A stretch of 64,000 nucleotides of DNA from Macrocystis pyrifera (lineage: Eukaryota > Sar > Phaeophyceae > Laminariales > Laminariaceae), in assembly GCA_031763025.1 (NCBI GenBank), contig JASSKH010000026.1:2170001-2234000 (forward strand). The letters are read 5' to 3'. The notes under the pieces are model-generated. The model made no database searches, was not told the DNA's origin, and saw only the letters and a list, made by a program, of their open reading frames with translations. The stretch's first letter is position 1, and each line of letters begins with the position of its first letter. Positions 17,417 to 64,000 of the stretch are shown here, piece by piece. A program made the position numbers and the translations under genes.

Positions 17417-17449
<33 letters not shown>

Positions 17450-20514: not shown

Positions 20515-20603
20515 CATCTCGTGCATGGTCGCAGGCGTATGACCGTAGACCCTGGCGTCCCTGCAATGCCGGGGCGGAGCATGTCGGGTTTCCGCCGACC
20601 AGG

Positions 20604-27099: not shown

Positions 27100-27450
27100 C
27101 GTATCACGTAGTGTGTACATATGGTAAGGCACTCACGAGACAGTTACATGGTATATACCCATTGCTGTCTCTAAAAGTGGCCACACCAGAAAATAAACCA
27201 TTTCATTGACGCTGTCATCCATATGCAAGAAAATCCGCCTCGAAAGCGTAAGCGGTTTCTACATCAGTAGGATGCAGCTCACCGTTCATGAGACTCGCTC
27301 ATCACCTCACGTTCCGCTTGGCGCTTGGTGCAAGCAATGTCTGCATGGTCGGTGAAACCCGACGTGTTCCGTCCCGGCACTGCAAGGATGCGAGGGTCTA
27401 TGGCCATACGACTATGGCCACGCATGATAATGAGTGCCCCCCCCCCCCCC
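27100..27450 (+). mobile_element. Family-P poly-C-ended element
   Basis: Near full-length: GATCGTATCACGTAGTGTGT at the 5' side, CAGTTACATGG, GTGGCCACACCAGAAA, ATGCTGTCATCC-like, CGTTCATGAGACTCGC, GGTCGGTGAAACCCGAC, and the 3' end GCATGATAATGAGTG plus about 16 C. Confidence 0.8.
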
Positions 27451-35751: not shown

Positions 35752-38700
35752 GTAGGTGTTGCGTTGGTATGTACATACTGCTGCTGTTGCGGCTGATGTG
35801 TCGAAATCTAATCGGCATGATCAGTGATATCTTGCGAGTGTGGAGTGTCCCTTTGCAGGCAGGGTATAATACCAGCCAGGTACCCAGCAGTACGAGTATA
35901 ATAGATACTGGTACTTTTTTTTTTCATCACTTTCACTTTCCAGCTTAGCTCGTACGTAGGAGGTTTTATCCTCAGCGGTCTTCTTCTGGACAAGCCGTGG
36001 TCACAGGTGCCGTCCCTTCTCCCCCCCGGTACGTGCCTTTACTTTTTGTTGTGCATAGGGTTCAGCATTCCCACTGCTCGTCGATGCTCATCGAATGTAG
36101 CTAACTCACGCTCTCGCGCTTTCCGCTAATCATTTTTTTATGCAAGAAAAAGTCCCCACGAGCATGCACTCGGTGAGACTCGAACCCACGAAATTGATGT
36201 TGATAGGCAACGCTACGTACCAAGCCGCCGGGGACGGCAGCCGCAGTGTGACTATTATAAGCAGGTACCAGGTATGATACAACACGACAACACAACACAA
36301 CGCAAAAGCAGCACCAACACGCCAACACGACAACAACAACAACAACAACAACAGCAGCGACACAGCAACAAACGCCAACACGATTACAACGCCAACAGCA
36401 GCACTACTATTAATATTAATACTGCTGTGATATAATCACCGCACCACACCATCACCACCACCACCACCACCACCACCGTCAACAACAACAACCTCAACAA
36501 CGACAACAATAACAATAGAGAGCATCTAGGTCCTGCTATACTCCGAAGTAATACGACGTACGGCAGTAGTACTCCGAGCGTTGAGTCCACAACAGGTGGC
36601 AATGGCGATGTTACGTACCAGTACACCATATACTTGCTGTACCGGTATCATCGCGGACCACAACAATTATGTAATACCGGTATTTACGTACGTACGCGAT
36701 TAGAGTACGAGCAGTATTGGTGTATTCGTGCTGCTGATCCACCTGATATTGACCCTTGTGTAAGGTCGTAATTGCACGTGGTACGTGGATTCTGGACACC
36801 GCGAAGAGACGGCCTTAGGACTGAGGAGAGAGTAAGAGAGGGCCAGAGCGAGAGCAGAGCATCTTCGTGTCCCTATAGCAGTAGTATGTCCTCGAAGTGC
36901 TCGAGCAAGCAGCAAGCGGAGGGATTGGTCTTCAAGCTGAGCGGGACTGGAGAGAGGGAGAGAGAGAGCCAGAGAGAGAAGGACAGCAGCGTCCTTGCAC
37001 GAGAAAAAAGTGTCCTTAACCAATGATATCACGTCCTCATGTGATAGCGTCCAAGCAAGCAGAGGGATTGGGTTTGCTCCATATACTCACACTGCTGTCT
37101 GCACTGCCAACGCCAATGTGCTTGTGCCCCCCCTACCTATGTTGATGTAAACTGGGAATGTCCCCACTTAAAACTAATAAGGGCGCGAGAAAGTTGCAAT
37201 GGCTATAGGGCAAGAGCATGCCGAAAAAAGGAGGTTGCCAGCCATAAGCCTAGAGCTCTGTGGGAGAAGGTAACGAAGGGGCGAGTTGGAGAAAGGTGGG
37301 ATATCGTGGTCGATAAAATATGGAAGAGAATTGGAGTAAACCAAGAAGAGATGTCCATGGAGAAGTTTGAGGGGTACGAGGCGAGAGTAAAAGAAAGGAT
37401 AGAAAAGAGGGAAAGGCTACATAGCTTTTAGAAAGGTGGAATGGGAAGAATAATGAGAGATACACGGTAGGTTAAGAGAAGCAAAACTTATTTTGACGAC
37501 CCAATGGACTGCGCGAATGCTGAAACTGCATGTTCGTGTAGGGGACCGGACCTGCCAAAACTAAAACACCGGCAGCCGAGAGCAGGAAGGAGATGCACAG
37601 ATGTCCTCTTGTGGTAAAGTGAAAGAGAGTAGAACTCATAATGTGAGAGAGTGTGAAATGCACAAGGCGGAACGGGATATGTTGGAGGAGATGAGGAAGA
37701 TGGACGAATGTGACATGGATAAGTTTTGCGCACTAGAGAATAGCGAGGAAACGATCGCTATACTAGGAGGTAGATTGTGGCCACAAAAGGCGAAACAGTA
37801 AGGGGATAAGACAAGCAAAAACGTCTCCATGAAGTGTATGGAAAAAACATACTGAGCTCTCGCATGTTGGAGATGTCTCTGTTATTTGGAGTAGGAACGG
37901 TTTTCCGTCTCGGAAGGGATGCGTAGTCAATGACCAATGAAGCAAACAACCAATGAGTATGCCCCTCGCCCTTTCACGTAGTGTTTATCGTTATATGGTA
38001 CCGCACCCATGAGGCAGATATATAGTGTTCCCAGTGCTGTCTCTGAAAGTGATGAAACCGGAAAACAAATCGGTTCACCCCACGCTGTCATCCATATTTC
38101 AAGAAAGTACGCACGAGGTGCCGAAATCCGCCTCACAAGCGGCTCTTAGTAGGATGCAACTCGCCCTTCGTGCGACTCGCCGAACACCTCACGGCACTTT
38201 ACGCTCGGTTCAATCAATTCATCTTTGCCTGGCCGGTGAAAACTCGACGTGCTCCGTCCCGGCATTGCAGGGATGCCAGAGTCTGTGGTCATACGACCAC
38301 GGTCATGCATGACACACCCCCCCCCCTCATCCTCACCCAAGAATCCGGCTCGGAGTGCACTGCCACCCTGTCCGATTGTTGCGCGGGAGCTGCCTGCCCC
38401 ACAGTTTTTGCACCACCTCCTGGCGGTTCGATCAGAGATTCAGAACGTCGCGCCGGGTCTCGTAGCGGCGTTGCACCGCGGAGCTTGGTCTGAATGTTTG
38501 AAGCACCATGACGAATACAGTAGAACTTTGAACGTTCTCAGGTACATGTGCCGCATTGTAAGCGGCATTCCCTGCGAGGGGCGTGGCAGCTGTCCTCGAG
38601 GTGTCTCCACGCTGGCGTGTGACGTACGTCAGCTCTACGACCGGCCATACCGTATGCTGCTGTACTCGTACGCTATTACGGAGGACCATAGTAAATAGGC

Positions 38701-41700: not shown

Positions 41701-44700
41701 CGGAGGTGCCGACTGTCCGATTTGTTGGGTTTCCATACGTGTAGGAGGGATTGTTGAAAGCGGGATACGTACGGTTTCCCCTTTTTGAGTGGGGCTCCCT
41801 CGGCCGGGTCGGGGGCTTATTTGGCTCGATTCGCTCGCCTGATTTGAGTCGGCAAGTCGGCTGGCCATTCAACCAGCCGACTTGCCGACTAAAGCTATTA
41901 CGGGGGTCCATAGTTAATAGGACCTAAGGTATACATAAAAACCTACATATTTACCTATTTTTATTAACAATATTTGGTCCTATTTACTTTGGTCCCCCGT
42001 AATGGTTAGTCGGCTAACGGAGCCTACCGACTAGATCGTAGTCGTCAAATCCTGCCGACTCACGGCTTTGTGTACCCTTTTGTGTCTTACAACGATAATG
42101 TTCGTCGTGAAGATTATATGCTATAGGCATGGTATGATATTATTTGATATGGTATGATGTGATATATGTCCTGTCCCCGAATTTGCCCAAGTGAATGCTT
42201 TCCAACCAAACCCCTAGTTGACGTGTCCCCGACTTAGGAAAATAACGAAATTGAGAGCAATGCCAAGGTAGTGGCACCAAATTTCGGCCAGACATTTTCT
42301 GTCCGGTTGAGCTCCTCCTTATCATAGCATGATCATTTTTTCTTAAAAGTAATGTACCAGGTATTTGCTCTAGGACTACAATATTAATAGTGGTACACAC
42401 TACAGTAGTTTACCAATATGGTGTATGTCGGGGATTGCAAGGACCGTTTCTAGTTCATGCGAATAAGTAAAAAGGTGTTGACCTTTCCGGACAGGGTGAT
42501 ATACTGCTACTGTAGGACTAGCGCATAGAAACGTTGATCGGGTTTGCGCGGACCTATTTTGTTAGACGTCGAGTTTCGGGTGATATAAACGGTTACACGT
42601 TTACCGCTGTCGGGTGATAGTTCGATTGAAAAGAAAAGTAACAGAAGGAAAGGAGTAGAAAACGCTTCTTGAAGCACAGCGTTAGTATATAGGCAATCAC
42701 AGACTTTGCGGAAAATTCAAAGAGGACAAGAAGAGCGGAATACTCCCCTGAAGCACCACAGCCTCGGTAGACGATCACGGGCTCGGTAGACGATCACGGG
42801 CTTCACCGGGGGAAAGAAACAACGTACACTATTTGAGCTCCTCCTCGTGCGCACAGCGGCAGCACCTCTCCAAGCAGGCACATTCGCTCTGCAAACCAAC
42901 CCTTCCTTGACGTGTCACGCAATCGCGAAAATAGCTTACAGCAAATACCTGGTAGCGATCAACCTTTGTCGATTTCCTTCCAGCAGATAAAAAAACACAA
43001 GAACGAGTACGTTATTTTGTCATCCTTTTATTACCCGCCCCTTGCTTGGCACCTCGTGTTCATCGCGGTGACGGGAATAAAACCGTACTTTTTTGTTGTT
43101 TTGTTGTTCATCGAGTTTGCCCGTGTAGTATACATACGCAAGTTTTCTTTTAAAAAAAATATGGATTTGTGGAGAGAGTTATTCGGGACCTCCGAACGTA
43201 ACGTTTGGTAGCGTGCCCCCCTCTGTATGGCGGGAGGGAGGCATCCCCAGGGAGGTGCAGAGGGGTCAACGTGTGACTTAACTTGTGGAGTACACGCTTT
43301 GTCGTTTTTGAGATAACTGGGTTGTTGAAAGAGGAACAGCTTAACTCGGTTAGGACTGCGGTCTGGTTTTGGGGGGGCAAACTACAGTACCTATAAATTG
43401 GGTGGCTTGTCCCCAAAACCGGACTGCAGTACTATTACGGGGGGCCATAGCAAATGGGACCATATATTGTAGGTAAAAATAGCGAAATATATAGGTTTTT
43501 GTGTGTACCGTAGGTCCTATTTACTACGGTCCGACGTGATAAGAAAAGGGTTAACGTCCCTCAGTGTTGACCCACCCAACGTCAGCGGGAACCCCCCCGC
43601 CCCCCCCCCCCCCCCCCCCCACCGCCCGCATAAGCAAGAAAACCCGCCTTTACAGCGATTCTTAGTAGGATGCAGCCCACCCTTCATGCGACTCGCCCAA
43701 CACATCTCGCGGCACTTCGCGCTTGGTGCAAGCAATGTCTGCCTGGTCGGTGAAAACCCGACGTGCTCCGTCCGGCATTGTAGGGATGCGAGGGTATATG
43801 GCCATACGACTACCGCCACGCATGATAATGAGTACACCCCCCACCACCACCATCGCCCGCCCAACTATTTGCAGGAACCCCTCTCTCAGATATACGCCTA
43901 CGGCCATGCATGACGTGAGCACCCCCCCCCCCCCCCCCTCCCCCCCCGACCGATCCCCAGTCTACGTGCGGTATTCGGCCATAGCTTGCGCTCCGCGGGC
44001 GACGCGCCAGACGATCTTGCATATGAACGGGAGAATAGGCTCTCGATGTCAGTGCCAAGATAAAGCGGTAGCGGTTGCTATGCACATGTGAAAATATGAA
44101 GTAAGCTGGAGCGGTCAGATCTAAAATTCCCCCAAAATCATGTTTGCATGATCGGTGTGATGTGATTCTTCGATCGCGCGTTCTGTGGGGTGTGTAGGGT
44201 TTTATATAGCTTTTCGAAGGGGCCTACAACTTCTTATGGATATGCATTTTGGTTCAAAAGTCCGTCCTACTGTAACTCCTCAGTACATCTTGTTTCCTGT
44301 CTCTCTGTCTCTGTCTTCGTCTCTGTCTCTTCATCATTTTACCGTTGCGGTGATTCGTTACCGTTGCGGTCGGTTGTTATCGTTGCGGTTGGTTGTTACC
44401 GTTGCGGTGATTTGTTTCCGTTGCGGTCTGTTGTTATCACTGCGTGGTCGTTACCGTTGCGGTCGGTTGTTATCGTTGCGGTTGGTTGTTACCGCTGCGG
44501 TTGGTTGTTGCCGTTGCGGTGATTTGTTTCCGTTGCGGTTTGTCGTTACCACTGCGTGGTCGTTACCGTTGCGGTCGGTTGTTATCGTTGCGGTTGGGAG
44601 TTAACGATGCGGTCGTTCGTTACTGCTGCGGTCGGTTTTTACCCTTGCGGTCGGTTGTTTTGCGGTGGGCAGGACAATGACATTCACGTGCTGGTGCCTC

Positions 44701-47075: not shown

Positions 47076-47395
47076 GTACTCAGGTCATGCATGGCCGTAG
47101 TCGTATGACCGTAGACCCTCGCATCCCTACAATGCAGGGACGGAGTGCGTCATGTTTTCACAGACCAGGAAGACATTGCTTGCTTGCACCAAGCGCGAAG
47201 CGAAGCGTGAGGTGTTGGGCGAGTCAAGTCGCATGAAGGGTGAGCAGCTGCATCCTATATATATACTGAGAACCGCTTGTGAGGCGGAATCTCTTTTCAT
47301 ATGTGGACGACGGCGTCGAATGAGGGGGACCGGGGGGGGGGGGGGGGGGGCAAGGGTTGGAGAGGAGGCAATCCACAAGATAGATTCCAGTACCG

Positions 47396-47426
<31 letters not shown>

Positions 47427-50400
47427 AGGGTTGGAGGGGGGCAAATCAAGAAGCTAGATTCCAGTACCAGGTAGGTGTTTATCGCGGCGGAACGATGGAG
47501 GGGGTGCCCATACGCTTTTTAGGAGGCCCCTTTCTTACCTGAGGGAGAAGCTCTGTGCCTCACTCATGACGCCATTTTTTTGGAAACCCTGATTGGTCGG
47601 AAATGTAAGGGCTATTATACATCGACATGAACACCAAGCCGTACGTATGTTTACGCCCAGCGTGGCGAGCAACAGGTTGCAAACAAGAGTTTCGACGAAA
47701 ATTCGTCGATCTCACATCTTTTCTTTTTTTTTTAATCACCAGTTATTTTTATTGAATCTTTGTAAAATCTGCTCAGCAAACAAAACTATTACGGGGGACC
47801 ATAGTAAGTAGGACGAAATATTGTGAGTAAAAATAGGTTAATATATACGTTTTTTTTGTGTGTACCGTAGGTCCTATTTACTATGGCCCCCCGTAACAAT
47901 GTGAATATCGAGCACTCACTCGAACGAATTGTCTCCAACACGGGAGCCCCGTCCTTAAGGGTTTAGTCGCAATCCGACGATCAACGAACACCGCCTGGAG
48001 TTCCGCTCTCGCCGAAAATGTAAGATCAAATTTACATCAATATCATAGTCCCAAAGGGTAGTAGTGTATACGGGGCCAGGATGGGGAAAAAAAAACAAAA
48101 CACGAAATGGGATTTTTTTTATGATACTTGGTGATGATTTTTCTACGCGCTCGTATAAATATATATACATATATGCTCGTATGTATGTGGGGTTTTGTCA
48201 TCACGAGGCTGTGTATGTATAGTGATAGATTTTTTTTCTGACGGTGAGTGAGTTTTGCTTCTCGGCGTCGCGGCTAACGTAAGCCACCAACCCCCCCTGA
48301 CCCGGAATCCTAACACTGACCTTAACCGTAACTCTAACCCTTAATTGGTTGATGGGTGTGCCGTGCTGTGGTTGTGCTTAGAAGTACACTATTAGAGGGG
48401 GGGGGGGGGGGGGGGGCGTACTGTAGTACTACATACTATGTCCCATAATATAAGAACCATTTTTACACTAGTTGATAAACCAAACGGTGCTTAAATTTTC
48501 GGGACAGAGTGTGATCAGAATCCACGATGGACGCAAGGACCGGGTAGGTATCCCCCTGTTTTTCCGCAGCGTGTTTGGCGCGTGTGCTACGACACAAGGC
48601 AGAGCACTTTTTGCGTTATGAGGCAATCTTTTCAGTATGTTGACGGAGCTCTTCAGGTGAGGAACGAAGGCATCCCCCTATTTTTCCGCAGCGTGTTTGG
48701 CGCGTGTGCTACGACACAAAGTAGAGCACTTTTTGCCTCATGAGGCGATATTTTCTGTTGGTTACGGAGCTCGCCTGCTTTGCCTGTGTTTCCTGCTTGA
48801 CCTGCTTGGCTTGCTTAGTCTGCTTAGCCTGACCAACTCCCACGAAAAAAAAATAATAATCAGTGTATGAAGCCGTTGTTTCGGCTTCGCCAAAAATATC
48901 TCCATCGCGATACTCAAGCGGGAGGGAAAACACGAGATTGATTTTCAGCGACGACGCGTTGGTGAGGACCGAACTAACCGGTATATTCTCTTTTGTGCTG
49001 CAGTATTTTTCGTTCCTATGCACGTACAGGCTATGAACGAACTTGAGACTACCACGACACGCGTTTTCGGCGAGGTACGGGGGAGCTGCTGTTTTCCACG
49101 CGAATCGTATACCAGTGTGAAGATAAAATAAAAATAAAAACCGAAGCTGTGAGGTCGAAAAACCCCCCGCAAAACTCGTCTTGGCGAGCTTGGTGCGATC
49201 CCTCGGTCACGCGTTCTAAGGAAGGTCCGCCTTCGGGGGAAGAGTTAGGCGAGCTGGTCTTCTGTTGGGTACTGTCCTCAGTTGGCAAGCTCCGTTGTAT
49301 AGTCAGATTGGTTTGGGCCCAAAAGCACCCACCCCCCCCCCCCGTCCCCGAGCTACCGCACTGTAGAGGCATGTCTCGATCAGAAGACGCGGGAGCGGGG
49401 ATAGAGCAACGGGAAACGTTTCCTGGCATCCGTTGCGTTGTGCTAACAGGGAACAGCAAGCAGGCACCCTGGTGCGAACTGCTGCCTCGTCGACCCTCGG
49501 ACGTGCCGCACCCCCTTTCTCCCCTCCCCTCCTCTTCAGTTTTCTGCTCTGAGGGTAACGTGCAACACCCGTTGATTTTGTACCTAACGGACGATACCTC
49601 GAGGAGATCCTCTCCGGAACCTTGGGTCGAAAATTCTTCGCACGCGCAGTTGTATACCATGTAGAAGTATGTATATTTTCGCGACGGTGAATCGATCGCT
49701 TGCCGTCTTGCTTTTTGTATTTTTTTTTTTTTTTTGTGTGTTTTTTGTTATTTTGCTTATTTTGCTACGCACGCGTAATTGTTGTAAAACCTGGTATCAG
49801 GCATATATATATATTTTTTTGTTATTTTAATGTTGCTTTGTTTTGCGGCTGTGTTGACGCAACGATTCAACAACAAAACAAAAGGTGGCGAGGGCAGAAG
49901 GTGGACCGCTCCAACCCCGCGACGACGGATTGCCTCGACGTTTGCGAGAAGAAGGAGACGCAGAGGGACTTCAGCTGGTAGGTTGGGTTAGGTTGGGTTG
50001 GGTTGGGTTGGACTGGGTTGGTTTGGGTTTGATTGGGGTTGGTCGGACCAGGTTGGGTTAGGTTGGGTTAGATTGGGTTGGGTTGGGTTGGGGTTGGTCG
50101 GGTCAGGCTGGGTTGTGTTGGGTTGGGTGGGGTTCAACCGCACTCGGTCAGCGATGACAGGAATATTTTTCTGAATACGTTATTCTACATCAGCTGCGAG
50201 TTCGACCGATGCCGTAGATGCCCAGCTTTATGAGTAGTGTGACAGGTCGATCTCTGAAGATGTCCAGGTGTATCGTTAATAATAAATGCCGATATATATC
50301 ATGTACCGCAGTAGATCCTCTATATTCCACTATGAGATGTACATGAGTCGTATCATACAGATCCCCCCCCCCCCTCGTATATTATATACCCGGTAGGTAT

Positions 50401-52226
50401 ATAGGTTGGGTTGGCGTCGGTTAGCGACGACGCTGTAAAAAACACGCCTCTCCCTGCGTGAGCCAGGCAGCCAGGGTACCGTTTTTTTTTTTTTTTCTTG
50501 GCGGTTACCGCGGCCGGTGGTCAAGTTAGATCATTTTTGTGCGGGGAGAACCTTTACTCCGCACAAGGGGGATGATCGTATCACGTAGTGTGTACATGGT
50601 GAGGCACCCACGAGGCAGTTACATGGTAAACCGATTGTTGGCTCTCTGGAAGTGGCCACACCAGAAATTTAATCAAGTCATTGATGCTGTCATCCGTATG
50701 CAGAAAACTCCGCCTGTAAAGCGGTTATTAGTACTATTACGGGGGACTATAGTAAATAGGACCAACTATTGTCTGTAAAAATTGGAAAATATATAGGTTT
50801 GTGTGTGTACTGTAGGTCCTATTTACTATGGGCCACCGTAATAGTAGGATGCAGCTCACCCTTCGTGCGACTCGCCCAACACCTCACGGCGCTGCTTCGC
50901 GCTTGGTGCAAGCATTGTCTTCCTCTCGACGTGCTCCGTCCCGGCATTGTAGGGATGCGAGGGTCTATGGTCATACGACTACGGCCATGCATGATGATGA
51001 GTACACCCTCCCCGCCCCCCCCCCCCCCCCCCCCCCCCCTTCGGCAAACAGCCGCGCGAGAGCCGTGTCGCCATGCAGATCCCCATCCGGCATTATGACC
51101 GACTGCAGATCGTACAGAGCTTACACATCAGGGAAATATCCACCCCGAGATATGTACAGCAGTCCGTTATGACGTGGTGGTCTACGGACTTGTAATACGG
51201 CTGCTGTGTGCAAATTTCGAGGGCACGTGTCGTATGGTACGAGTTTTTTTTTTTTTTTTTTCAATTCAACCCTCCTGCCGGATTGGTTAGGTTTTGAAGC
51301 TTAAGCTCACCACACTTCGTTTCTACGAATAAAAAAAACTCTTGTTGTTTTCATGGGCAGAGCAAGCTGCTGCCGTAGCCATCGACCTCGGGGCGCGTGA
51401 GCGAGCGTGTTGACCCGACCTGGTCCCGTGAGGATCAGGTGCGATGGAGACGGCCGCTCGGGAGGGTCAGCTTCACTGGGCAGTGTGGGAGACTTGCGCG
51501 AGCTCACCCATTGACCCAAAACCTAGGACCAACGCCGTCCCCACATTACGAAATACCTGGTGTGAGATTTTTGGGTACTATTGATGGCAACCGGGTAGAG
51601 AGTACCCTTGGTATACTGACCACAATACCATACAATATATTTATATATATATATATCCCAAACTACCGACCATATACCATACAATATATACCCGATTCTA
51701 CCGACCATATACTAATTTTACCCGGGTACAAAGTACTCTTGGTGTACTGACCTCAACACCATACAAGATATACCCGAAACTACCGACCATATACTAAGTA
51801 TACCCGGGTACAAAGTACTCTTGGTATGCTGACCTCAATACCATACAAGATATACCCGAACTACCGGCCATGTGCTAAGTATACCCGGGTACAGAGTATT
51901 CTTGATATGCTGACCTCAATTAATACCATGCAATACATGTCCGAAAACTACCGACCAGATACTAAGTACATCCGGGTGCAAAGCACTTTTGACATGTTGA
52001 CCTCAAACCATGCTGCACATACCCGAAACTACCGGCCGTATGTACTAATACCAACAAATTCTTCGGGGCGTTTTTTTGTGTTTGACGAAACATAGGTGCT
52101 TTGACACCGCGATTCGGTCCTTGGACATCCGCCGTGTGCCGGAGCTGTTCCCTCCCGTGGCGTATAGCCGCCTCCCCACGCGGAATTTTAACAAGGGGAC
52201 AGACACCGGATTGGTGTTCCAGGTGA

Positions 52227-52262
<36 letters not shown>

Positions 52263-55200
52263 GGGGTACTCGATGTCATGCTGGGGAGGGGAGGGGGGCG
52301 GGGGCGTACTCGTTTGTTGCTTGCCTTAGTCTTTTTACCGTTGACCACGCATCCCTTTCGAGAAGACAGAGCACCGTTGCTACTCCTGATCGAGACACCT
52401 CCAACAGTTGAGCGCTCAATACGTTGTTTCCATACAGAGAGGGGGGGGGGAGAGGGCTGGTGCGTGCGAGCTGTCGCGAAGTTGGCAAAAACGTGATTTT
52501 GGCAATTGCGATTTTAGCCATGCGATGTTATCGACGCAATTTTTTTAGGAATCATGCGATTTTAGAAGCGCAATTTTACGATTTTAGCAACGCCATTGTG
52601 GCAACGTGATTCTAACAAAGCGATGTTAGAGACGCGATTTTGCACAACGAAAATTTAGCAATTCGCGATTTTAGCAGCGCGATTTTGCTAGTTTGACGCC
52701 GCGATTTTAGAAACGTGACTGTAGCAACGCGGTTTTGGTATCGCGAGTTTAATGGCGTGAATCCTGGTAAAACGACATTTGACCAATGCCGTTTTAGCGG
52801 TCGACATAATCGTGAATTCCTTTTTTTTACCCGAGTTTTTTCGGCGCGACCACGGTGCCGTGCCCCACACACGCACAATCGAACGTATACCCCCCCCACC
52901 CTTACCCCCCGTCGACCCCACCCCACCCCACCTGACTTCGTCCCACCGCACTACACCGCACATCACCACACCCCACGTCAATCTGATGATCTCTCTTGAT
53001 AGTTGCGTGACGTGACGTGACGCCGTGCGTCGTCTGGTATGTTTGTGTCTGAATTTTGCTTCTGAGCAGGGTCAGTTCGGGGGCATCAAGTCTCACCCGC
53101 ACCTGGTGACACACGCCTTCTCGGTCCACACCAAACCCTTCTGTCAGAAGAGCACTCAGATTTGCTCCCCCTTCGTCGACGGGCTGCTTGCGCCAAACTA
53201 CCAGCAGGGCATGCAGAGGTACGATTATCATGCGTACCGCCAACTGAACCCAAAACCAAACTACGGTATACCGTTTTATGGCGTACCGTACCGTTTTTTA
53301 GGGGTGTGAGTGGGCACGACTTCATGCCTTTAGAACTGTGATTCCATTTCGGAGAAAAAAATACTTGTAATTAGAGTTATAGATATATGTCTATGGACAG
53401 TGCAGTACTAGCAAGGGTTATAAGTTACCGACTAGTTGGTGGTCGGATTTATAGGTCGTCGTTTCCCGGACATGCCGACTATATCCGACTGATTTGGGTT
53501 TCCATACTGGTAGGAAGGATTGTTGAAGGAAGGATTACGTTTTTTTTTTTTTTGTGAGCAGGGCTCTCTCTCTCTCTCTGTCGTGGAGGGCTGATTTTGG
53601 CTCGCTTTTTGCTCGCCTGGCTTGTGAGTCGGTATGCCGGCTGCTGGCCATCAGCCAGCTTTGCCAGCCGACTTTAAGTGTTAATGTCAGTTAGTTGGCT
53701 AGCGGCACTTACCGATTAGTTGTTCGTCGTGGAATCATGCCGACCCACAGGTCTTTTTCTTATTTCGGTGTACCGTTTTATGTCTAATGAGGACACATCA
53801 CGATGACCCGTGGTACCGTACAAGTGCACCTATACATCAGTCTCGGCCGATACGTAAGGAACGATTGGTCCTCCGACTTTTCTAAGGAAAGAAAAAAAAA
53901 ATCGAAGCCGGAGCCGTGAGATCGAAAAATTACTCAAAACTCATGCTGGCCACGTTTGGTGCGATGATCCGCTCACGCGTGTACCCCAACGCTCCTTTTT
54001 GCGTTCCCGCCCACTGAGTACACTTTTGTCTGCACCAGCGGTATATTGGCATGTACGTACGCCCTGAGCTCTTCGGATTTGCTCGGGTTTTTCTTTCCCC
54101 CCCCCCCCTAGCACTCTGTTCCCGACCAAACAGGTACTTTGACCCCGCATTGAGCCCATCCCATTTGGACACCCTGCTCTTGCTTCTATAGTGGTGCAGA
54201 AAGTACAATCAGCCCTCCGCAGGAGCCGCCGGAAACCCCACCTGGCACCTTGTTCCCGTTCGGTACCGTGTAGGCCATACACATCTACAGCAACTCCTGC
54301 TGTACATACATTCCAACCGCAAGTAAATTTCACGAGCAAAGTCGAACAGCCCAGCCCGTGCGTGCGATTTTACGGGCGTTTTGGGGAGCTGTTTACCTCA
54401 ATGCCTGTCGTAGCGCCCCCGATCTGCCCTCGTGCCTTCTTGGCTTCTCCTTCCGACCCGTCGTCTACCGAGGCACCGTGGTGCTCAGACTTCGATTGCC
54501 CTCTCAGGAGGCCGGGCAGGGAGGGAGCTCGTAAGTGCGCCGCTATTTTCGTTGCGGGGGAACCGGGCGCGCACAGACCGGGTCGGGAGCCCAGAGATCA
54601 AACGCTACGGCGAAAAGTCTTGGACGCAAATCTGAGGGGGGCTTGAGACACAGACACGCACACACCCCTTACGATGTTCCGAGAGGGTCCTCCTGGCTTG
54701 AGCTCTGTGCTGCTGTTACGGTACTGTAGAGACGCGTGCGGCGGTGGGCAGGGGCAGCAGCACCCTGCGATTTCCCGAGACGCTCGCTTCCCGCGCTTGA
54801 GGAGATAGTTAATACCTCAGTACCTCAATACCCGTCTTAGCCTTAGTCCCCCCCAAAACCTGACTCTCGAAGAACAATCCCACGACCTGAAAGATATGGG
54901 ACGAACCTATTGTACAGTAAAAACACTGCGTACTGTACCAATGGCGGTCCAACGAAAAGCGAACAGCTCCTCGTTTATAACCCACTTTTGGGACTTCGGT
55001 CCCGTTTTACTTTTGACTGGTTCGTCCCCCAAGACGGGGGACGTGCAGCTCTAAGAAGGATCAGGGAAATTGTCAGTCTCAAAAAAAAAAAAAACGAATT
55101 TCCTTTGTGCGCGTACCCCCACTTCTGATAAGAGAGAACAACACACACCCCGGGACGAATTTCGGAGCTTGTTTTTTTCGACAACGGGGAAGGTGCAGAC

Positions 55201-56356
55201 GAAAATAGCAAATGGGTCTGTGTACGGAATCATCTCCGTCGAGGGGCCTCGTTTCAGGAGGAGCCTGCCATACTGAAATGTTTCTTTTCTTCATCGCTCG
55301 GGTGATAGTATAACCCCCCCCCCCCTCGGACGAATTTTCGAAGCCGATTTTTTATCGACGATGTCGCGTACCGTAGTGCACTACTTTGTACCTAGACCTG
55401 CATCTGACTCTAGTTCCAAGTGTTTTGTCCCCAGGGCGGGAGTGCGGTCATTAAGGGGGGCCTCTTTTTGGGAAGAAAAAAAACACTCGGAATTCTTAGG
55501 GTTGTGATCGTTGTTGGATTTGGAAGAAAAAGGTCGAGAGACGGGTTTGTCACAGGAAGGCGTGTTTTTTTACCTCGTCTCTCCCTCTTAACCCTGAGTA
55601 ATTTGTCCCCAAAACGGGCCTGCACGGTCCAAAAAAGGCTTGAGACATGAATGGGGGCATCATCTGATACCTGGTAGCTTTTAGTGTGCCCGCCGTGTCA
55701 AGCCGTTTAACCTTCTCTCTTGAAAAACGGTACTTTTCTCTTTAGCCGAGAGGTATAGCTCTTAAACCGGGACCCACAATACTTGGAGTACCAGGTGCAG
55801 ATAGATACTTCTTACGAATACTTTGCTGCTATTAATAGCTGCTGTGCTGCTTTTTTAGCTGTTTTGTTTCGACGATGATACACTCACTCGTAAATAGAAG
55901 AGAGACAGTGAGATGCTTATCAAGGGCTTCCTAACGATTACGGGGTCCGTAGTTAATAGGACCTACGGTACACACAAAAACCTATATGTTTACCTATTTT
56001 TACTAGCAATATTTGGTCCTATTTACTATGGTCCCCCCCATAATATTACAGCACGCACCTTGGGACAGGTGCAAAACGAAAAGAGCGATGCGTCTGCGGA
56101 GGTATCTCGTTGATATTTTTNNNNNNNNNNNNNNNNNNNNNNNNNNNNNNNNNNNNNNNNNNNNNNNNNNNNNNNNNNNNNNNNNNNNNNNNNNNNNNNN
56201 NNNNNNNNNNNNNNNNNNNNAAATGGTGCCCGAAAAGGTAGGAAATGACCCTTAGAGCCGGTCCTAACAAGGGAAAAAAATCGAAAAAAAAACGAAACAA
56301 ACGAACAGACTTTCGATTTTTCGAAAAAAAACAGCAGGTTGAGTCTTAGCGAACCC

Positions 56357-57276: not shown

Positions 57277-60200
57277 CGGTTTTTTTTTTTTCGGTTTTTC
57301 GGTTTTGTTTTTTTTTTTTTTTTCGTTTCGCTTTCTCCCCCTTCCTTAGGACCCACCCTTATTATTAATAGCAGGTGCTCCTACCTTAAGAGCGTCGAGG
57401 TCGCAAAGGTGTGCGATCGTTTTTCAGGGCTCGATGCTTCCATAAACGGGAAGGTTAAGGTTAAGGGTTGCCAATACCGAACTACTGTATGTATAAGGGT
57501 GTTTTCGGAAATATCTAGTCGAGAGATCCTTCCTAGATTATTAGGTTGGACTTTTATCAACACCCTTTTTGCCGTTGTCGAGGGAAAACGAGCAGCGCTT
57601 GAAAATCGATCGTGTATCAGACCCCTATGCGAACTCAACGCTCTCTACGGTAAGCAAACGCAAACGGTGCTCACATTTCCGAGCGGAGCGATGTGCAGTA
57701 AGTAGCTCACGATGTACATATATATAATGTATATACCTCAAGATAGCACTCACGCCGTATCCTTGCACGGCGTTTCGGGAGGGGGGGGGTGCATCCCATA
57801 GTGAGATTGATGAGTGAATGACTTGAGTCAGTGTGAACTATTTTGTTGATTTAATTTCAGGAGACGTAAAGATTATAGTAATAAGAGGTAGGAAGTGGGT
57901 AAAATCAACTATTTATGGTAACCACTCTTTGATTAGAGGGGTGGGGTGTACTCATTATCACGCATGGCCGTAGTCGTTTGACCATAGACCCTCGCATCCC
58001 TACAATGCCGGGACGGAGCACGTCGGGTTTTCACCGACCAGGCAGACATTGCTTGCACCAAGCGCGAAGCGCCGCGAGATGTGTTGGGCGAGTCGCATGA
58101 AGGGTGAGCTGCATCCCACTAAGAACCTCGTTTGCGGCGGCCTTGTAACATGGATGATAGCGTCAATGGACGGATTTGTTTTCTGGTGTGGCCACTTCCA
58201 GAGACAGAAATGGGGGGGGGGGGGGGGGGGGGGGGGTGATTTGGATACCCTCCGGGGTAAACATAGGGGGGTACGATACCATACTAGTTATCTGTATTTA
58301 CGATATATATATACACAGGTTGGTTCAAGTAGAGCGTCTCAAAACACTGCTCGATTGTCACACAGGATATCAGCTGCGATGCTCTTGTATCGCACGAGTA
58401 CGTGCTGCTGTTCTGCTGTGTGTTTCTACGCTCTGGTGCTCGTTGAAGCTACCAGCAGGGGTGTTTGAAAAGTAAATAAATAAATAACTACTTGGGGGCT
58501 ATTTCGTCTCCTCGAATTCGGAAAATAAATACTCTTGGTTCTTAGTCTTTCTCTGTTTGTATGTATCAGTAGTGGTATTGTTTCTTTGGACTCTCCTCGA
58601 ATTCGGAAAATTCATAATTTTCGTCTCCCCGAAATTCGCAAAATAAATGCTCTTGGTTCTTAGTCTTTCTCTTGTCTATTTGTATCAGTAGTGGTATTTG
58701 TTTCTTTCGACTCTCCTCGAATTCGGAAAATACATAATTTTCGTCTCCCCGAATTCGGAAAATAATACTCTTGGTTTTTGTAATTTCATCTTTTTCCATC
58801 CATCCTGTTCGTTTTCCTCGCCCTACTCTCCCGCTCCCTCCCAGCACATCGTAACTGAAAAATCGGGAGTCACATAGCGGGCGGGCGGGCGCTCCTCACC
58901 GCGGCAAATGCCTTGAGGTTTTAAAGCGGGAACCACTCAGCATTTTTTTCCCCTCAATAGACTTGCGTCGGATTCTGCAAACCCACGCTGTGAATGAAGC
59001 ACTGCCGTTTTTTCAGGAGGCTGTTATAGCACGCCTACCTTGCTTGAGTCTTCGGAAAAAAAAAAAGGTTGCGATAAAAATCGACGAAGAGCAGTGTACT
59101 GTAGCGGGCATGCTGAACCCGCTGCGCGCTAAAAATGGAGGCGTGTATGTATGCCGGGGGGAGAAGGGAGGGCACCGGTGACCGCGGCTTTAGCCCGAGA
59201 GCTGGAAGAGTAAAGGTGATGGGTCGAAAATAACGAAACTGAGCGCATGGCAAGAGTGTTGATGCGTATGTAGCCAGCCCTCGACGTCAGAAATCTCAAG
59301 TACTACATACTGTACAGTATACACATACCTTTACGTTTGTATGCTGACGGTACCTCTATGCACTTCGAAGTACGTTAAATAGCGCGGTATACACATAAAA
59401 TTTGTCACCCACGAACAGTAAGAAATGTACCACCCGAACAGTAAGATTGTACGGTGTCAAGGGCGGGCGGGCGGGCGGGTACTTTTTGAGTATAGACTCT
59501 TGCAATGTAAAGTGGCGGCAGCGCTTTACTACACGAGTATTTTTCTTTGGCGCCTGCCTCACTCGAGGATCTTTTGTTTGTGACCGCCTCGTGTTAAGGT
59601 CCGAGTCCGCTCCTGCGCGTGAAATTACAGCAGATTCGAAACCCGTTTTTGTGATTTTCACGCGCAGGTTTCGAGTCCTGTCGTCGACGCCATTTGATAA
59701 AACGTCTTAAGTCCGTTGGGCTACGGGTAAAAAGGTCATATCCTATCGCCTCTACCCGATCTAATCAAGCCTTGTAACACTCGCCCGAAACTTGACTGAT
59801 GAGAAAAATGTTCGAGCTTCTAGCCTTTTTTAGAAGTGCTGCGGTGGTCCCGTTTTGGGGACGGCCTGCTCATACTTTAACTGAGCTGTTCCCTAAGCGG
59901 GACTGCTGCTGTCCTAAAAACGGGTTGACAATCCGATGATCGACCCCATGGCCCAGGTGTGCAACGAACACGGCTGTGAAGTCATGAATGGGACTCCGCA
60001 CCATGTGGGGTAACCCCGTCGGTCGCAGTGAAAGGGCCTCATACTATTTCACGGGGGTCCATAGTAAATAGGACCAAATATTGTTAGTAAAAATAGGTGA
60101 ATATAGAGGTTTTTGTGTTTACCGTAGGTCCTATTTACTGATGGACCCCCGTAATATTAAAGGGGACCGTAGTAAATGGGACCAAATATTGTTAGTAAAA

Positions 60201-60867: not shown

Positions 60868-62064
60868 TTCGACCTTCCCAGCTCACCGGAAGCTCACGTC
60901 CCGGGACTAAACCTTCGGTACGGGACAGAATTCCGGGGCATCCGGCAAGGCCGCAGGAGGGAGAGCGGTCCTAAGTGGCGTCAGATGGGGAAGAGGAATG
61001 ACAAGAGCTTTTGTTTCGCCAGCCTGCCAGGGGCCGGGGGCAAAGAGTTCATGGGCGAGGTGAGATTAACGGACATCGGACAGATCACTGTCTCCCAGTT
61101 CTCGAAAAGGGATCCACCCTGCGGACGTCCCCTCTCTTCTGTTTCAGGTTACTACTGCAATATCATATGATGGTCTCGTAATCCTCGGTGAAACAATCAC
61201 TGATACCATCGTCTCACAATCCCAGCTGAAACGATCACTTGTGTGTCCGCATTAGCATCACCGTTCTCCTAATTGAAAACGATCGCTATCCTAGGAGATA
61301 GATGGTGGCCACAGACGGCCAAACAGGAAGGGGATGAGATTAGCAAAACGTTTCTACGTAATATATGGAAACAACGCAATGAGCGCCCAACTGTTGGAGG
61401 TGTCTCTATTAGGAGTAGGAACGATGCTCCGTCTCGAAAGGGATGTGTGGTCAATGGTCAAATGACCAAGGCAAGCAACTAATGAGTACGCCCCCCCCCC
61501 CCGCCCCCCCCCTCCTGATATGTGTATGTAGGCTGGGTTGGCGTCGGTTGGCGGCGACGCTGTAAAACACGCCTCTCGCTGCGTGGGCTACTGCAGACAA
61601 CCAGCGAACAGTTTTTTTGTTGTTGTTTTTTTATTTGCAGTCGAGTCAGATCTTTTTTATGCGAGGAAAACCTTAACTCCGCTTTTTCCTGACGAATCGA
61701 GTAGACCTTTTCGTATCAGACGAGCGAACGTTTCGCCCCTGACAGACGTTCGTTTTATCTCTTCCTGCTCTTTCTGGCGAGCGGAACGCATGTTTTCGTT
61801 TCGTCTGACCTTTTTTTTTTTTTTTTCGCTTCGATCGGATGATTATAATTTATCTACTACTGTACGAGTACTATATCTAACCACAGCAGTAGTTCTTCGT
61901 TTTTTGACGAACGGATCTATATTATTATGACTAACGGATCTTTTTTCTTGCGAACGGTTCTTTTTTTTCCCCTCCGGCTAACGGTTGTATCACAGGTGCT
62001 GGCGCCGTTATTTCTCCAGCGATTTTGCGCCCACGGGAATTGCGATGGCATCAACACGGCCACG
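35246..62064 (+). CDS. Type II membrane glycosyltransferase, GT34 (Gma12/Mnn10)-like
   Basis: Nine exons join in phase: 35246-35751, 39943-40141, 44673-44774, 46899-46993, 49885-49977, 52096-52222, 53070-53218, 60882-61059, 61996-62064 (506 codons, no stop yet). Domain order: Asn/Ser-rich cytosolic tail with an Ala run (29-40), basic stretch (RRRLVVRPRSERHKR, 53-67), one signal-anchor helix (68-92), short stem, then a GT-A catalytic region beginning PRIAIVSNA (122-130) with YAKTHGYDLIIDS (156-168). The catalytic metal-binding DxD is in WVLWLDMDTLVVD (208-220), in the context RKWLPHYDWVLWLD typical of GT34. A later YDDQSRLYAAIL fits the acceptor-side DQ region. Such enzymes act in the Golgi lumen using nucleotide sugars; which sugar and acceptor cannot be read, although cell-wall or N-glycan elaboration is plausible. 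Exons 8 and 9 are assigned by phase and strand. It is divergent from the MYND gene. Confidence 0.68.
35916..36246 (-). mobile_element. tRNA-derived SINE with poly-A tail, copy 2
   Basis: The minus strand reads the tRNA-like head (CGTCCCCGGCGGCTTGGTA), B box GGGTTCGAGTCTC, the GCGCGAGAGCGTGAGTTAGC block, a G run, CTGGAAAGTGAAAGTGATG and a short A tail (T on plus near 35917-35926). Confidence 0.75.
37180..37985 (+). mobile_element. LINE-Q: degraded C-terminus and 3' UTR of a non-LTR retrotransposon
   Basis: Three open pieces in shifted frames read as the C-terminal part of a LINE ORF2. The first is ALWEKVTKGRVGERWDIVVD and on to YEARVKERIEKRERLHSF. The second is WTARMLKLHVRVGDRTC. The third is a Cys-His cluster, CGKVKESRTHNVREC, then HKAERDMLEEMRKMDE, ending LGGRLWPQKAKQ. 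The CxC…H…C arrangement is the zinc-knuckle-like tail known after the reverse transcriptase of many LINE clades. Stops and frame changes make it inactive. The last 240 bases are the segment repeated in all other LINE-Q copies, ending near AATGAGTATG and a C-rich stretch. Confidence 0.65.
37965..38330 (+). mobile_element. Family-P element directly following LINE-Q
   Basis: Begins TTTCACGTAGTG, contains GAGGCAGATATATAG, CTGTCTCTGAAAGTG, GCCTCACAAGCGGC and CCCGGCATTGCAGGGATG, and ends GCATGACACA plus a C run. Confidence 0.75.
38674..38783 (-). mobile_element. M1 inverted-repeat element, copy 7
   Basis: CTATTACGGAGGACCATAGT … ACTATGGTCCCCGTAATA. Confidence 0.85.
39645..39915 (+). repeat. Duplicated unit of about 135 bp with (CGGT)n
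   Basis: GTGTGCGTTAGTGGAT and GTGTGCGTTGGTGGAT head the two copies, each followed by CGGTCGGTCGGTCGG tracts and a TTGG(C/G)TGCCGTG block. Confidence 0.75.
39943..40141 (+). CDS. Glycosyltransferase exon 2 (DxD exon)
   Basis: Acceptor TAAACCAG; completes the split codon (AG+G), reads NHVEGMGFYTNAETGERGDT then the DxD region, and ends GGQ at CAG|GTATGA, phase 0. Confidence 0.8.
41541..41649 (-). mobile_element. M1 inverted-repeat element, copy 8
   Basis: CTATTACGGAGGGCCATAGT … ACTATGGTCCCCCGTAATAG. Confidence 0.85.
41650..42090 (+). repeat. Family D element interrupted by M1
   Basis: Matches 53420-53780: GTCGACT-rich ends, TTGGGTTTCCATAC, AGGATTGTTGAA, GGGGCTCCCTC and a palindromic TCGGCAAGTCGGCTGGCCA. 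M1 copy 9 sits near its right end. Confidence 0.65.
41896..42004 (-). mobile_element. M1 inverted-repeat element, copy 9
   Basis: CTATTACGGGGGTCCATAGT … TTGGTCCCCCGTAATG inside family D. Confidence 0.85.
43366..43565 (+). mobile_element. Family-K/M1 composite, second copy
   Basis: GGGGGCAAACTACAGTACC, TTGTCCCCAAAACCGGACTG, CAGTA, then M1 copy 10 (43433-43541) and AAAAGGGTTAA. Same order and junction as 30988-31193. Confidence 0.65.
43433..43541 (+). mobile_element. M1 inverted-repeat element, copy 10
   Basis: CTATTACGGGGGGCCATAGC … TACGGTCCGACGTGAT; the right end is diverged. Confidence 0.75.
43640..43920 (+). mobile_element. Family-P element plus extra 3' module
   Basis: P body from CTTTACAGCGATTCTTAGTAG to GCATGATAATGAGTACACCC, then a second short module (CTACGGCCATGCATGACGTG) with about 20 C. 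Another C run lies just 5' (43592-43620). Confidence 0.75.
44340..44665 (+). repeat. 18-bp minisatellite upstream of exon 3
   Basis: About 17 units of GTTACCGTTGCGGTCGGT with substitutions. Since 18 is a multiple of three, frames stay open across it. The exon 3 acceptor (44672) lies within 10 bases of the last unit. Confidence 0.85.
44673..44774 (+). CDS. Glycosyltransferase exon 3
   Basis: 34 codons, phase 0 at both ends (GGGCAG acceptor, ATG|GTGAGT donor). Reads DNDIHVLVPQDQNVQFFFSA and then SLLLRNSPETMAM. A minisatellite lies directly upstream. Confidence 0.75.
44775..46898 (+). other. Glycosyltransferase intron 3 (2.1 kb)
   Basis: Contains a (TCTGC)n microsatellite (45608-45648) with CTGCTG tracts, the TIR element at 45760-46056 and GATC-rich repeats (46560-46800). 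Confidence 0.55.
45760..46056. mobile_element. Non-autonomous TIR element with TA flanks and telomere-like core
   Basis: The terminal inverted repeats are 26 bp with one mismatch: GCAATCTGGGAGAAGGGATC (then TTTAGG) at 45760-45785 and its complement at 46031-46056. TA lies on both outer sides, as for Tc1/mariner-type insertions. The interior (297 bp element) has no transposase frame but carries degenerate CTAACC/TAACTC repeats (45845-45892). Confidence 0.8.
46899..46993 (+). CDS. Glycosyltransferase exon 4
   Basis: Acceptor CTCTGCAG, donor AA|GTGAGT. Encodes VDDWFSLKDTCPYALYDDQS and RLYAAILRMQL, including the DQ pair. Confidence 0.75.
47038..47330 (-). mobile_element. Family-P element with long poly-C end
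   Basis: Minus-strand P body ending ATGACCTGAGTACACC and a run of about 35 C (G on plus, 47038-47074). Further G runs at 47330-47350 and 47397-47424 are separated by a repeated GCAAGGGTTGGAG. Confidence 0.8.
47787..47898 (+). mobile_element. M1 inverted-repeat element, copy 11
   Basis: CTATTACGGGGGACCATAGT … TATGGCCCCCCGTAACA. Confidence 0.8.
48305..48345 (+). repeat. Degenerate telomere-like array
   Basis: ATCCTAACACTGACC, then TTAACCGTAACTCTAACCC: diverged CCCTAA-type units. Confidence 0.6.
48546..48780 (+). repeat. 122-bp tandem duplication
   Basis: TTTTTCCGCAGCGTGTTTGG and GCGCGTGTGCTACGACACAA recur at an offset of 122; each copy ends TACGGAGCTC-like. Confidence 0.8.
49885..49977 (+). 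CDS. Glycosyltransferase exon 5
   Basis: Acceptor AAAAG (A-rich, weaker), donor TG|GTAGGT. Reads WRGQKVDRSNPATTDCLDVC and then EKKETQRDFS. The donor opens directly into a GGTTGG minisatellite. Confidence 0.6.
49980..50130 (+). repeat. GGTTGGGTTAGG-type G-rich minisatellite
   Basis: Continuous GGTTGGG/GGTTAGG units beginning at the splice donor of exon 5. Four-G-tract spacing is compatible with G-quadruplex formation. Confidence 0.85.
50575..51040 (+). mobile_element. Family-P element split by M1
   Basis: The 5' part (GATCGTATCACGTAGTGTGT to AAAGCGGTTATTAG) and the 3' part (TAGGATGCAGCTCACC to GATGATGAGTACACC plus C runs) flank M1 copy 12. Confidence 0.85.
50734..50844 (+). mobile_element. 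M1 inverted-repeat element, copy 12 (nested)
   Basis: 111 bp, CTATTACGGGGG … CCGTAATAG, flanked by TA on both sides (50732-50733 and 50845-50846). Other P copies read CTTAGTAGGATGC with a single TA at this site, so this copy fixes the element ends and the 2-bp TA target duplication. Confidence 0.92.
51590..52040 (+). repeat. 82-bp tandem array
   Basis: Five to six units with TACCCGGGTACAAAGTACTC, TGCTGACCTCAATACCATAC and CCGAAACTACCGACCATA; GGGTACA positions at 51724, 51806 and 51887. Confidence 0.85.
52096..52222 (+). CDS. Glycosyltransferase exon 6
   Basis: Acceptor AAACATAG, donor CAG|GTGAGG. Joins phase 2 to 1 (TG+G = Trp). Reads CFDTAIRSLDIRRVPELFPP and VAYSRLPTRNFNKGTDTGLV. A G run of about 34 starts nine bases past the exon end. 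Confidence 0.7.
52227..52440 (-). mobile_element. LINE-Q 3' end with poly-C
   Basis: The minus strand reads TGGAGGTGTCTCGATCAGGA, CTCGAAAGGGATGCGTGGTC, AAGGCAAGCAACAAACGAGT and ACGCCCCC, then C-rich DNA to the long homopolymer at 52227-52260. Confidence 0.75.
52490..52780 (+). repeat. Degenerate minisatellite GCGATTTTAGCAACG
   Basis: About 17 imperfect 15-18-bp units of (A/G)CG(A/C)GATTTTAG(C/A)AA. Confidence 0.8.
53070..53218 (+). CDS. Glycosyltransferase exon 7
   Basis: Acceptor TGAGCAG, donor AG|GTACGA. Reads GQFGGIKSHPHLVTHAFSVH and then TKPFCQKSTQICSPF, a His/Cys-rich late catalytic segment. Confidence 0.72.
53420..53780 (+). repeat. Family D, uninterrupted copy
   Basis: Same block order as 41650-42090 without M1 inside, giving an approximate empty site. 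Confidence 0.65.
55937..56045 (-). mobile_element. M1 inverted-repeat element, copy 13
   Basis: GATTACGGGGTCCGTAGTTA … ACTATGGTCCCCCCCATAAT; ends eroded. Confidence 0.75.
56121..56220. other. Assembly gap
   Basis: Exactly 100 N, the usual placeholder for a scaffold gap of unknown size. Confidence 0.98.
57127..57425 (+). repeat. Duplicated block with T-rich separators
   Basis: CTCCCCCTTCCTTAGGA(T/C)CC, TATTATTAATA, GGTGCTCCTACCTTAAG and CGTCGAGGTCGC occur twice, about 205 bp apart, separated by long T/TTTTCGG tracts. Confidence 0.8.
57405..57640 (+). repeat. Family H, copy 2
   Basis: Shares GTGCGATCGTTTTTC, TTGCCGTTGTCGAGGGAAAA and ATCGATCGTGTAT-type blocks with 14390-14825. Confidence 0.55.
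57950..58236 (-). mobile_element. Family-P element
   Basis: Minus-strand P body ending GTGATAATGAGTACACCCC. A run of about 33 G (58203-58236) lies at the other side, after CCAGAGACAG, so the homopolymer here abuts the 5' part. Confidence 0.75.
58501..58790 (+). repeat. 118-bp tandem array
   Basis: TTCGTCTCC(T/C)CGAATTCGG, CTCTTGGTTCTTAGTC and ATCAGTAGTGGTATT repeat at 58505, 58622 and 58742. Confidence 0.85.
59095..59240 (+). mobile_element. SINE 3' fragment
   Basis: GGGCATGCTGAACCCGCTGC, a G run, AGAAGGGAGGGCACCGGTGA and GCTGGAAGAGTAAAGGTGAT match the 3' half of the tRNA-derived SINE. Confidence 0.6.
60045..60156 (+). mobile_element. M1 inverted-repeat element, copy 14
   Basis: First unit of a three-element head-to-tail run; CTATTTCACGGGGGTCC … GGACCCCCGTAATA. 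Confidence 0.85.
60157..60263 (+). mobile_element. M1 inverted-repeat element, copy 15
   Basis: Directly abuts copy 14; AAAGGGGACCGTAGT … ATGGTCCCTCGTGATA. Confidence 0.85.
60264..60358 (+). mobile_element. M1 inverted-repeat element, copy 16 (right end missing)
   Basis: Abuts copy 15; TTACGGGGGACCATAGTA … TATTTACTATG, then unrelated sequence. Confidence 0.85.
60520..60640 (+). repeat. 12-bp minisatellite GGGAATCCCGTG
   Basis: About nine units of TCCCGTGGGAA or TCCCGTGGGGG; each unit is itself palindromic. A CCG/CCA tract follows at 60835-60868, directly before exon 8. Confidence 0.9.
60882..61059 (+). CDS. Probable glycosyltransferase exon 8
   Basis: Acceptor CTTCCCAG after a CCG/CCA tract, donor GAG|GTGAGA. 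The first base completes the split codon of exon 7. Encodes a basic segment (YGTEFRGIRQGRRRESGPKW) then NDKSFCFASLPGAGGKEFMG. A separate gene or intervening exons across the 7.7 kb gap cannot be excluded. Confidence 0.5.
61275..61505 (+). mobile_element. LINE-Q 3' end with poly-C tail (best copy)
   Basis: AAAACGATCGCTATCCTAGG to GATGGTGGCCACAGACGGCC (coding ILGDRWWPQTAKQ), AACTGTTGGAGGTGTCTC, CCGTCTCGAAAGGGATG, CAAGGCAAGCAACTAATGAG, TACG, then C runs. Confidence 0.8.
61996..62064 (+). CDS. Probable glycosyltransferase exon 9
   Basis: 23 codons, phase 0, acceptor TATCACAG and donor ACG|GTGAGC. Reads VLAPLFLQRFCAHGNCDGIN then TAT. If the donor is skipped, the frame stops after a further 11 codons at 62098-62100, an alternative terminal exon. 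Confidence 0.5.
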
Positions 62065-63869: not shown

Positions 63870-64000
63870 CCGGTGGCCACACCAGAAATTAAATCAATTC
63901 ATTGATGCTGTCATCCATATGCAAGAAAATCCGCCTCTAAAGCGGTTCTTAGTAGGATGCAGCTCACCCTTCATGCGACTCGCCGGACACCTCACGGCGC
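63870..64000 (+). mobile_element. Family-P element cut by the window end
   Basis: Starts right after a C run at GTGGCCACACCAGAAATTAA, continues through GATGCTGTCATCCATATGCA and AGTAGGATGCAGCTCACCC to CACCTCACGGCGC at the last base. Confidence 0.85.

Follow-up and report, generated by a model that had tools for sequence, protein, structure and literature searches.

Are the runs of C that accompany two dispersed repeat families of the kelp Macrocystis pyrifera tails carried by the elements, or are they the sites into which the elements insert? The question arises from a 64,000-nucleotide (nt) stretch of contig JASSKH010000026.1 (positions 2,170,001 to 2,234,000; hereafter the window), in which copies of LINE-Q, part of a long interspersed nuclear element (LINE), and of a second family, P, terminate in the same word followed by C's. 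The original prediction took them for a pair of a LINE and an element resembling a short interspersed nuclear element (SINE), with a shared 3' end and a poly-C tail. We consider it highly probable that the Q LINE and its follower P insert into C-tracts, the C strand being the sense strand, via target-primed reverse transcription in which a nicked G-run acts as the primer. The C-runs beside the elements would then be more than a tail: at least some of their C's appear to have been the landing site.

C-runs at element boundaries and at element-free sites

With BLAST, the window yielded 18 fragments of P and 7 of Q, including all the copies named in the original prediction. The word ATGAGTAC occurs there 8 times versus 1.27 expected, a number reached in none of 100 shuffles. 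Genome-wide counts, which cover the 537,376,219-base, 223-sequence assembly, gave 16,324 exact matches (8108 + 8216) for ATGAGTACNCCCC versus 82 (40 + 42) for the reversed pattern; therefore, the C-runs are not randomly placed relative to this end, and the predicted association of end word and C-runs holds genome-wide. The additional claim that the word is followed by A or G holds as a loose rule: in the first set, exact ATGAGTAC is followed by A in 12 of 16 P copies and by G in 9 of 15 Q copies, but A follows in only 4 of 9 P copies of the second set.

Loci that overlap larger stretches (L003, L004, L005, L008) were dropped from the counts. In the main set for the analysis of boundaries, the removal of loci that duplicate others (L002, L011, L017, L023, L024, L025) left 83 of 102 fragments, and 80 had flanks. 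In 49 of these 80 (P 32/49, Q 17/31), a run of at least six C's lies no further than about 30 nt from the 5' boundary, and 49 likewise have one near the 3' boundary, while runs of at least six G's were present at 0/80 and 1/80 boundaries, respectively. By comparison, C-runs of this length were found in 2.9% of random windows and in 5/80 stretches located about 300 nt upstream. The 3' C-runs in the first loci outside the window are selected for, because these loci were chosen by ATGAGTACNCCCC; the 5' side is unselected. In the second set, the 5' side carries such a run in 16/23 and the 3' side in 19/23 fragments, or in 13/17 and 16/17 in a recount that left out seven further duplicate loci; for window fragments with enough flank, the respective values are 15/24 and 16/24. 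Among P copies chosen by their body alone (20 out of 100 listed matches, all exact), a C-run stands around the 5' end in 17/20, compared with 4/20 for a more distant upstream control, and 17 of the 19 tails found have one on the 3' side. Across the assembly, CCCC immediately precedes 54 of the 95 exact P 5' ends.

C-tracts devoid of the elements are found at corresponding places in two host repeat families. In a short repeat family, which includes the C12 tract of the window at 55314, 12 loci were fetched and 10 of them present the site empty, with 3 to 34 C's, whereas in a relative of the window repeat (L019:7770) a short P end occupies it. The other family is represented by the left flank of the LINE in L106 (L106:1020-1172, relatives L107-L121); it gave 1104 first-look candidates, of which the best 40 were scored, those listed being 96–99% identical. 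Among 15 fetched copies, the C-tract is uninterrupted by an element in 12, L108 has the LINE 5' end at the tract, and L112 and L119 break there. The LINE 5' end likewise lies at the tract in L106, while L082/L092 harbors a P-LINE chimera there, flanked left and right by the same repeat. Thus, the repeat is present on both sides of the elements as well as in the empty sites, which places the pair among elements that target simple repeats. Separately, we observed in L119 a Q-like tail ending ...GTCAGTACG ahead of C-rich DNA about 100 nt further on, perhaps an insertion of a related LINE.

Target-site duplications with bases outside the C-runs, which the original prediction had proposed to look for, are clear in a minority of loci. 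The one in L067 is ACTCCCACCCCTCCCTG (17 nt), that in L018 reads C12TTCTACT, and that at L019:9358 is CCGTCTTTCCTGT; the duplication in L020 has one mismatch. At L088/L098, the duplication CCCCCACCCGCC lies inside the C-run of an older P, and at L087/L097 CACGACAA appears to surround Q alone. In an anchored test, 3 of 30 fragments match at seven or more bases (2000 shuffles: mean 0.13, maximum 2), and a wider set of 74, which was composed without L065, L072, L075 and L080 and without L070 for lack of a 3' end, gave 3 at a score of at least 7 (mean 0.37, P=0.005). All these tests are blind to pure-C duplications. L088/L098 has 22 C's on the 3' side versus 5 in the left duplication copy; therefore, its RNA probably carried C's of its own. 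Of the predicted poly-C tail there remain the C-runs at the 3' end and these extra C's, which fit a C tail on the RNA, but the presence of C-runs on the 5' side and in empty sites goes beyond it.

The elements share one orientation within arrays. Of neighbors no more than 60 nt apart, 29 have the same strand and none the opposite one (four of the 29 look like pieces of one copy), with the orders P to Q (10), P to P (8), Q to P (8) and Q to Q (3). Within 1000 nt, in the first set, 40 neighbors are on the same strand and 2 on the opposite strand.

The Q LINE and its partner P

LINE-Q is the 3' end of a reverse-transcriptase LINE of about 5.9 kb, a span derived from the coordinates of L105 and L099; the original prediction had proposed to search for a full-length LINE matching Q. 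Three copies (L101, L105, L106) share the 5' start point and define the 5' end. L009 was left out of this definition because the segment that contains its LINE recurs on contig C200 and on several unplaced contigs. Reading frames upstream of the Q tail were found at several loci, comprising an endonuclease-like part (L009), a reverse transcriptase (L013) and a C-terminal part. The LINE-type reverse transcriptase in L013 matches Pfam RVT_1 with E=1.6e-31, and the best relatives of the kelp enzyme with solved structures are LINE-1 ORF2p and R2. In L011 and L013, the frame extends to ...GQMTKASNK and closes with a TGA stop inside the terminal ATGAGTAC, so that four bases remain between the stop and the G or C of the run; the other copies read there are broken. 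These data support the predicted coding C-terminus of LINE-Q. Ten LINE copies were traced in the 3' direction: six end with AACAAATGAGTAC (containing the ATGAGTAC of Q) plus a C-run, L093 has the variant end ATGAGCAT plus a C-run, and three have their ends outside the stretch taken. Two of the seven with reached 3' ends, L096 and L098, continue into P or Q pieces. The start points of 5'-truncated copies are many and differ along the element. Q is a non-long terminal repeat retrotransposon, i.e., a LINE, by its LINE-type reverse transcriptase, 5' truncations and target-site duplications. A 401-base piece of the endonuclease region gave 405 first-look candidates, and among the best 40 that were scored many are dispersed copies at about 94%; for the Q copy at 61275..61489, the best 40 of 4952 first-look candidates showed 94–97% identity. 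We also noted that the LINE 5' region contains internal repeats about 125 nt apart, which resemble 5' monomers (L101 ~1380-2015; L105 and L106 alike).

P was predicted to be a separate non-coding element, and its structure bears this out. A pattern from its body has 2409 genome matches at up to two mismatches, versus 0 for the control. In 16 of the 20 copies sampled by body, P begins at a TATAT-like start adjoining C-rich DNA; of the remaining ones, L075 comes close to it with some divergence, L080 has a later start, and L065 and L072 are disturbed. After removal of the latter two, 18 copies yielded a consensus of 523 nt that runs from TATATTATATACC to ATGAGTAC and whose longest stop-free frame is 75 amino acids. 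Nothing in this sample shows P to be a piece of some larger element with coding capacity. In a variant of P, a second end, ...GATCGAGTACATCTCTCCTATCGAGTAC, precedes a C-run; it was observed in the window at 17720-18080 and at L018:254-348 and L019:8893-8989.

The two families are less distinct than a pair of different bodies with one end word. The common end stands, yet the shared 3' part extends over about 75 nt: in a gapped alignment with cheaper gap costs, 63 of 75 positions of the P and Q tails are identical, and the alignment without the final 8 nt scores 49 versus a maximum of 27 in 2000 shuffles. Moreover, P 28-70 matches LINE 30-72 (31-73 in L106) at 88–91% identity with BLAST (E 3e-12 to 1e-10), and the local score of this approximately 43-nt match is 68 versus a maximum of 35 in 1000 shuffles. 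Besides a T-run, the P body has no clear LINE match in the 5'-end comparison. P thus holds parts of both LINE ends and looks, from these alignments, like a LINE-derived non-autonomous element. At L082 (reverse strand, ~618), the 5' part of P is fused to the LINE interior with C-runs outside, a chimera that fits template switching between P and LINE RNAs.

The proposed SINE-like borrowing of a LINE tail is consistent with the common 3' end, through which P may use the LINE machinery. An RNA polymerase III origin, as expected of a SINE in the strict sense, could not be shown: no transfer RNA was detected in P at 14 loci, an Rfam search of L077 gave no match, and the box search was equivocal, with a full B box only at three mismatches but box-like words at one mismatch (A-box-like at 46 and 411, loose B-box at 199 and 294). 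The tails of both families fold into the same shape, with GUGCUC closing with the terminal GAGUAC (z −0.7 and −2.0). A common 3' fold stays a suggestion, since covariation equals that of shuffles and the gapped P/Q tail alignment gives no base pairs in RNAalifold. The tail set comprised 41 P and 28 Q tails, one false P tail of 42 having been removed.

A model of insertion into C-tracts and its alternatives

We propose that the LINE endonuclease would nick the G strand inside a C/G tract, and that the freed 3' G-run would anneal to the C's at the RNA end, just past ...GAGTAC, and prime reverse transcription. The C strand would be cut slightly downstream, either where the tract stops or a few bases past it, which would duplicate C's together with the next bases. 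Incomplete reverse transcription would give rise to 5'-truncated copies, whose 5' side would also abut C's, and each insertion would leave C-runs that can be targeted again, leading to same-strand arrays. From the shared termini we infer that P would make use of the Q protein. A broader version, in which nicked G-runs prime C-ended RNAs while insertions in turn seed C-runs, might explain much of the C-run landscape of the kelp and its arrays; we put forward this self-seeding homopolymer targeting only tentatively, with the chances somewhat against it.

The C-run could instead be mainly a tail, i.e., C's added to the RNA or complementary DNA by the reverse transcriptase or a terminal transferase at targets that are not C-rich. 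This would suit the close succession of 3' ends and C-runs, and the surplus of 3' C's at L088/L098 suggests that some C's are element-borne, but 5' C-runs are as frequent as 3' ones and the two host repeat families have element-free C-tracts at the same place, so that we judge a mere tail improbable. It is less probable still that P represents the 3' untranslated region of LINE-Q, with a composite of Q, C-run and P as the true unit. P does follow Q directly at L012, L013 and at window positions 37959 and 61489, and a Q end lies upstream of 4 of the 20 sampled P copies (L061, L064, L075, L080). Yet most of the sampled copies begin at one TATAT-like start, P to Q is as common as Q to P, and the LINE copies themselves end at ATGAGTAC or its variant ATGAGCAT plus a C-run. 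We rejected this assignment on the neighbor-order counts and the start of P's own.

The least credible alternative, in our opinion, is that the C-runs have no bearing on the mechanism and came about only once the elements were in place, through slippage or recombination in C-rich DNA or through errors in its assembly. C-run lengths differ between the duplicate loci L002/L009 and L010/L017; therefore, slippage or sequencing error is real. But such processes agree poorly with the lack of G-runs at the 5' side (0/80), with the position of the C-runs at boundaries and with duplications that contain non-C bases.

Several observations weigh against insertion into C-tracts by the Q LINE and P. As regards the target, 31 of the 80 fragments are devoid of a run of at least six C's at the 5' side, a figure in which age, deletion and insertion into other DNA are not separated; the left flank of the filled site in L019 matches its family over only about 9 bases; the empty site in L039 has only 3 C's; and L106 and L108 share a variant base, so that they may be one insertion copied with the host repeat, their 3' junctions lying out of view. 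The excess of duplications is modest, with 4 at a score of at least 6 (P=0.053) and 8 at a score of at least 5 (P=0.03) in the set of 74, and a looser test was non-significant (14/65 at a score of at least 10; shuffles: mean 9.8, maximum 16). As for the elements, the P-LINE junction in L082 has no C-run between the two parts, the two tails remain unjoined when BLAST is run at ordinary gap costs (13 nt, E=8), and the endonuclease matches (Exo_endo_phos, 3.6e-4; Exo_endo_phos_2, 4e-5) are both under the curated cut-offs and come from two frames of one copy.

Window features and known counterparts

The positions of the elements and of the element-free tract in the window are given in Table 1.

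Table 1. LINE-Q and P copies, arrays and C-tracts in the 64-kb window.
Feature	Position	Strand	Basis or similarity
P copy, C8 on 3' side	8839..9084	-	BLAST
LINE-Q copy, then P piece 9622-9685(-), no flanking C-run on either side	9695..9935	-	BLAST
P copy, C19 at 3' end	15084..15381	-	BLAST
Head-to-tail P/Q array, all same strand, mostly separated by C-runs	17420..18373	+	
LINE-Q 3' end, then G and C19	18234..18353	+	BLAST
5'-truncated P, C57 before	20511..20602	-	
P copy	27093..27435	+	BLAST
Old LINE-Q copy, 75%	37150..37959	+	BLAST
P fragment following the Q at 37150	37993..38312	+	BLAST
P copy, C21 before, C6 after	43629..43835	+	
P copy, C36 after	47076..47303	-	
P with intact 5' end, C12 before, split at ~50734-50841 by palindromic repeat	50378..51004	+	BLAST
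LINE-Q copy, C10 near 5' side	52306..52434	-	BLAST
Element-free C12 tract inside short repeat family	55280..55360	+	
5'-truncated P, C25 before	57948..58214	-	
LINE-Q, 5'-truncated, end ...TAATGAGTAC	61275..61489	+	94% to L013 copy
C-run separating the Q end from the following P fragment	61490..61512	+	
P fragment, 5' part (P 22-177), just past the Q C-run	61525..61682	+	BLAST
P fragment, C16 before, cut at window end	63874..64000	+	BLAST

The window, with a GC content of about 50%, has 22 C/G runs of at least 15 nt versus 11 A/T runs of this length. It also contains a palindromic repeat of about 110 nt (GGGGGACCATAGTAAATAGGACC...), which looks like a miniature inverted-repeat transposable element. 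Eleven copies fall into the first listed family, e.g., at 11070-11184, 41540-42008 and 62322-62728; three tandem copies are located at 60041-60370, and one copy splits the P at 50378-51004. Other features are an interstitial telomere-like repeat with five ACCCTA copies (33140-33169) and a 379-amino-acid frame at 27524-28663 (-), whose cysteine-rich end looks like a MYND zinc finger.

The brown alga Ectocarpus possesses RTEX-N1_Ec32, a very abundant non-autonomous element of about 600 nt that has its 3' end in common with RTE-X LINEs; a polymerase III origin was not shown there and its 5' origin was left open (PMC12477816). The kelp pair is alike in that an abundant non-autonomous element of a brown alga carries the 3' end of an autonomous LINE; it differs in that part of the P 5' end matches the LINE 5' end, and in its C-run target, none being mentioned in the consulted text on RTEX-N1_Ec32, the two systems being compared by description (PMC12477816). 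Insertion into a defined repeat is known from Mino, a LINE of the R1 clade that inserts into AC repeats (PMC3124438), and from repeat-targeting LINEs of the Tx1 and R1 clades with an apurinic-type endonuclease (PMC4640811), whereas the kelp elements, from a brown alga, have tracts of a single nucleotide, C, as their target and include a non-autonomous follower. Similarly, the fish Togen elements, discussed together with NeSL-related elements, are LINEs specific for a simple repeat, (TG)n, unlike which the kelp LINE has a putative endonuclease that weak Pfam matches would assign to the apurinic type (PMC4640811). In turn, RTE elements of Lepidoptera also link RTE-type LINEs to simple repeats, as they generate microsatellites, but there the repeat apparently arises with the element, while the kelp tract pre-exists at the sites examined (PMC2887409). 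Among the matches listed in the literature searched, which included few subscription journals, there was no LINE or LINE pair targeting C-runs. Brown-algal pairs of LINEs with non-autonomous elements and simple-repeat-targeting LINEs are thus known already, and the C-run target would be the addition.

If this reading is true, homopolymer-C joins the known LINE targets, and the kelp offers an abundant natural system, with 2409 matches to one P pattern, for studying how annealing between primer and RNA sets the choice of target. With the LINE stop codon located within the last 8 nt, the 3' recognition end has to be formed by sequence that also codes for protein. P, finally, represents a brown-algal case of a non-autonomous element with a partly traceable 5' end, a point that is open for its Ectocarpus counterpart.

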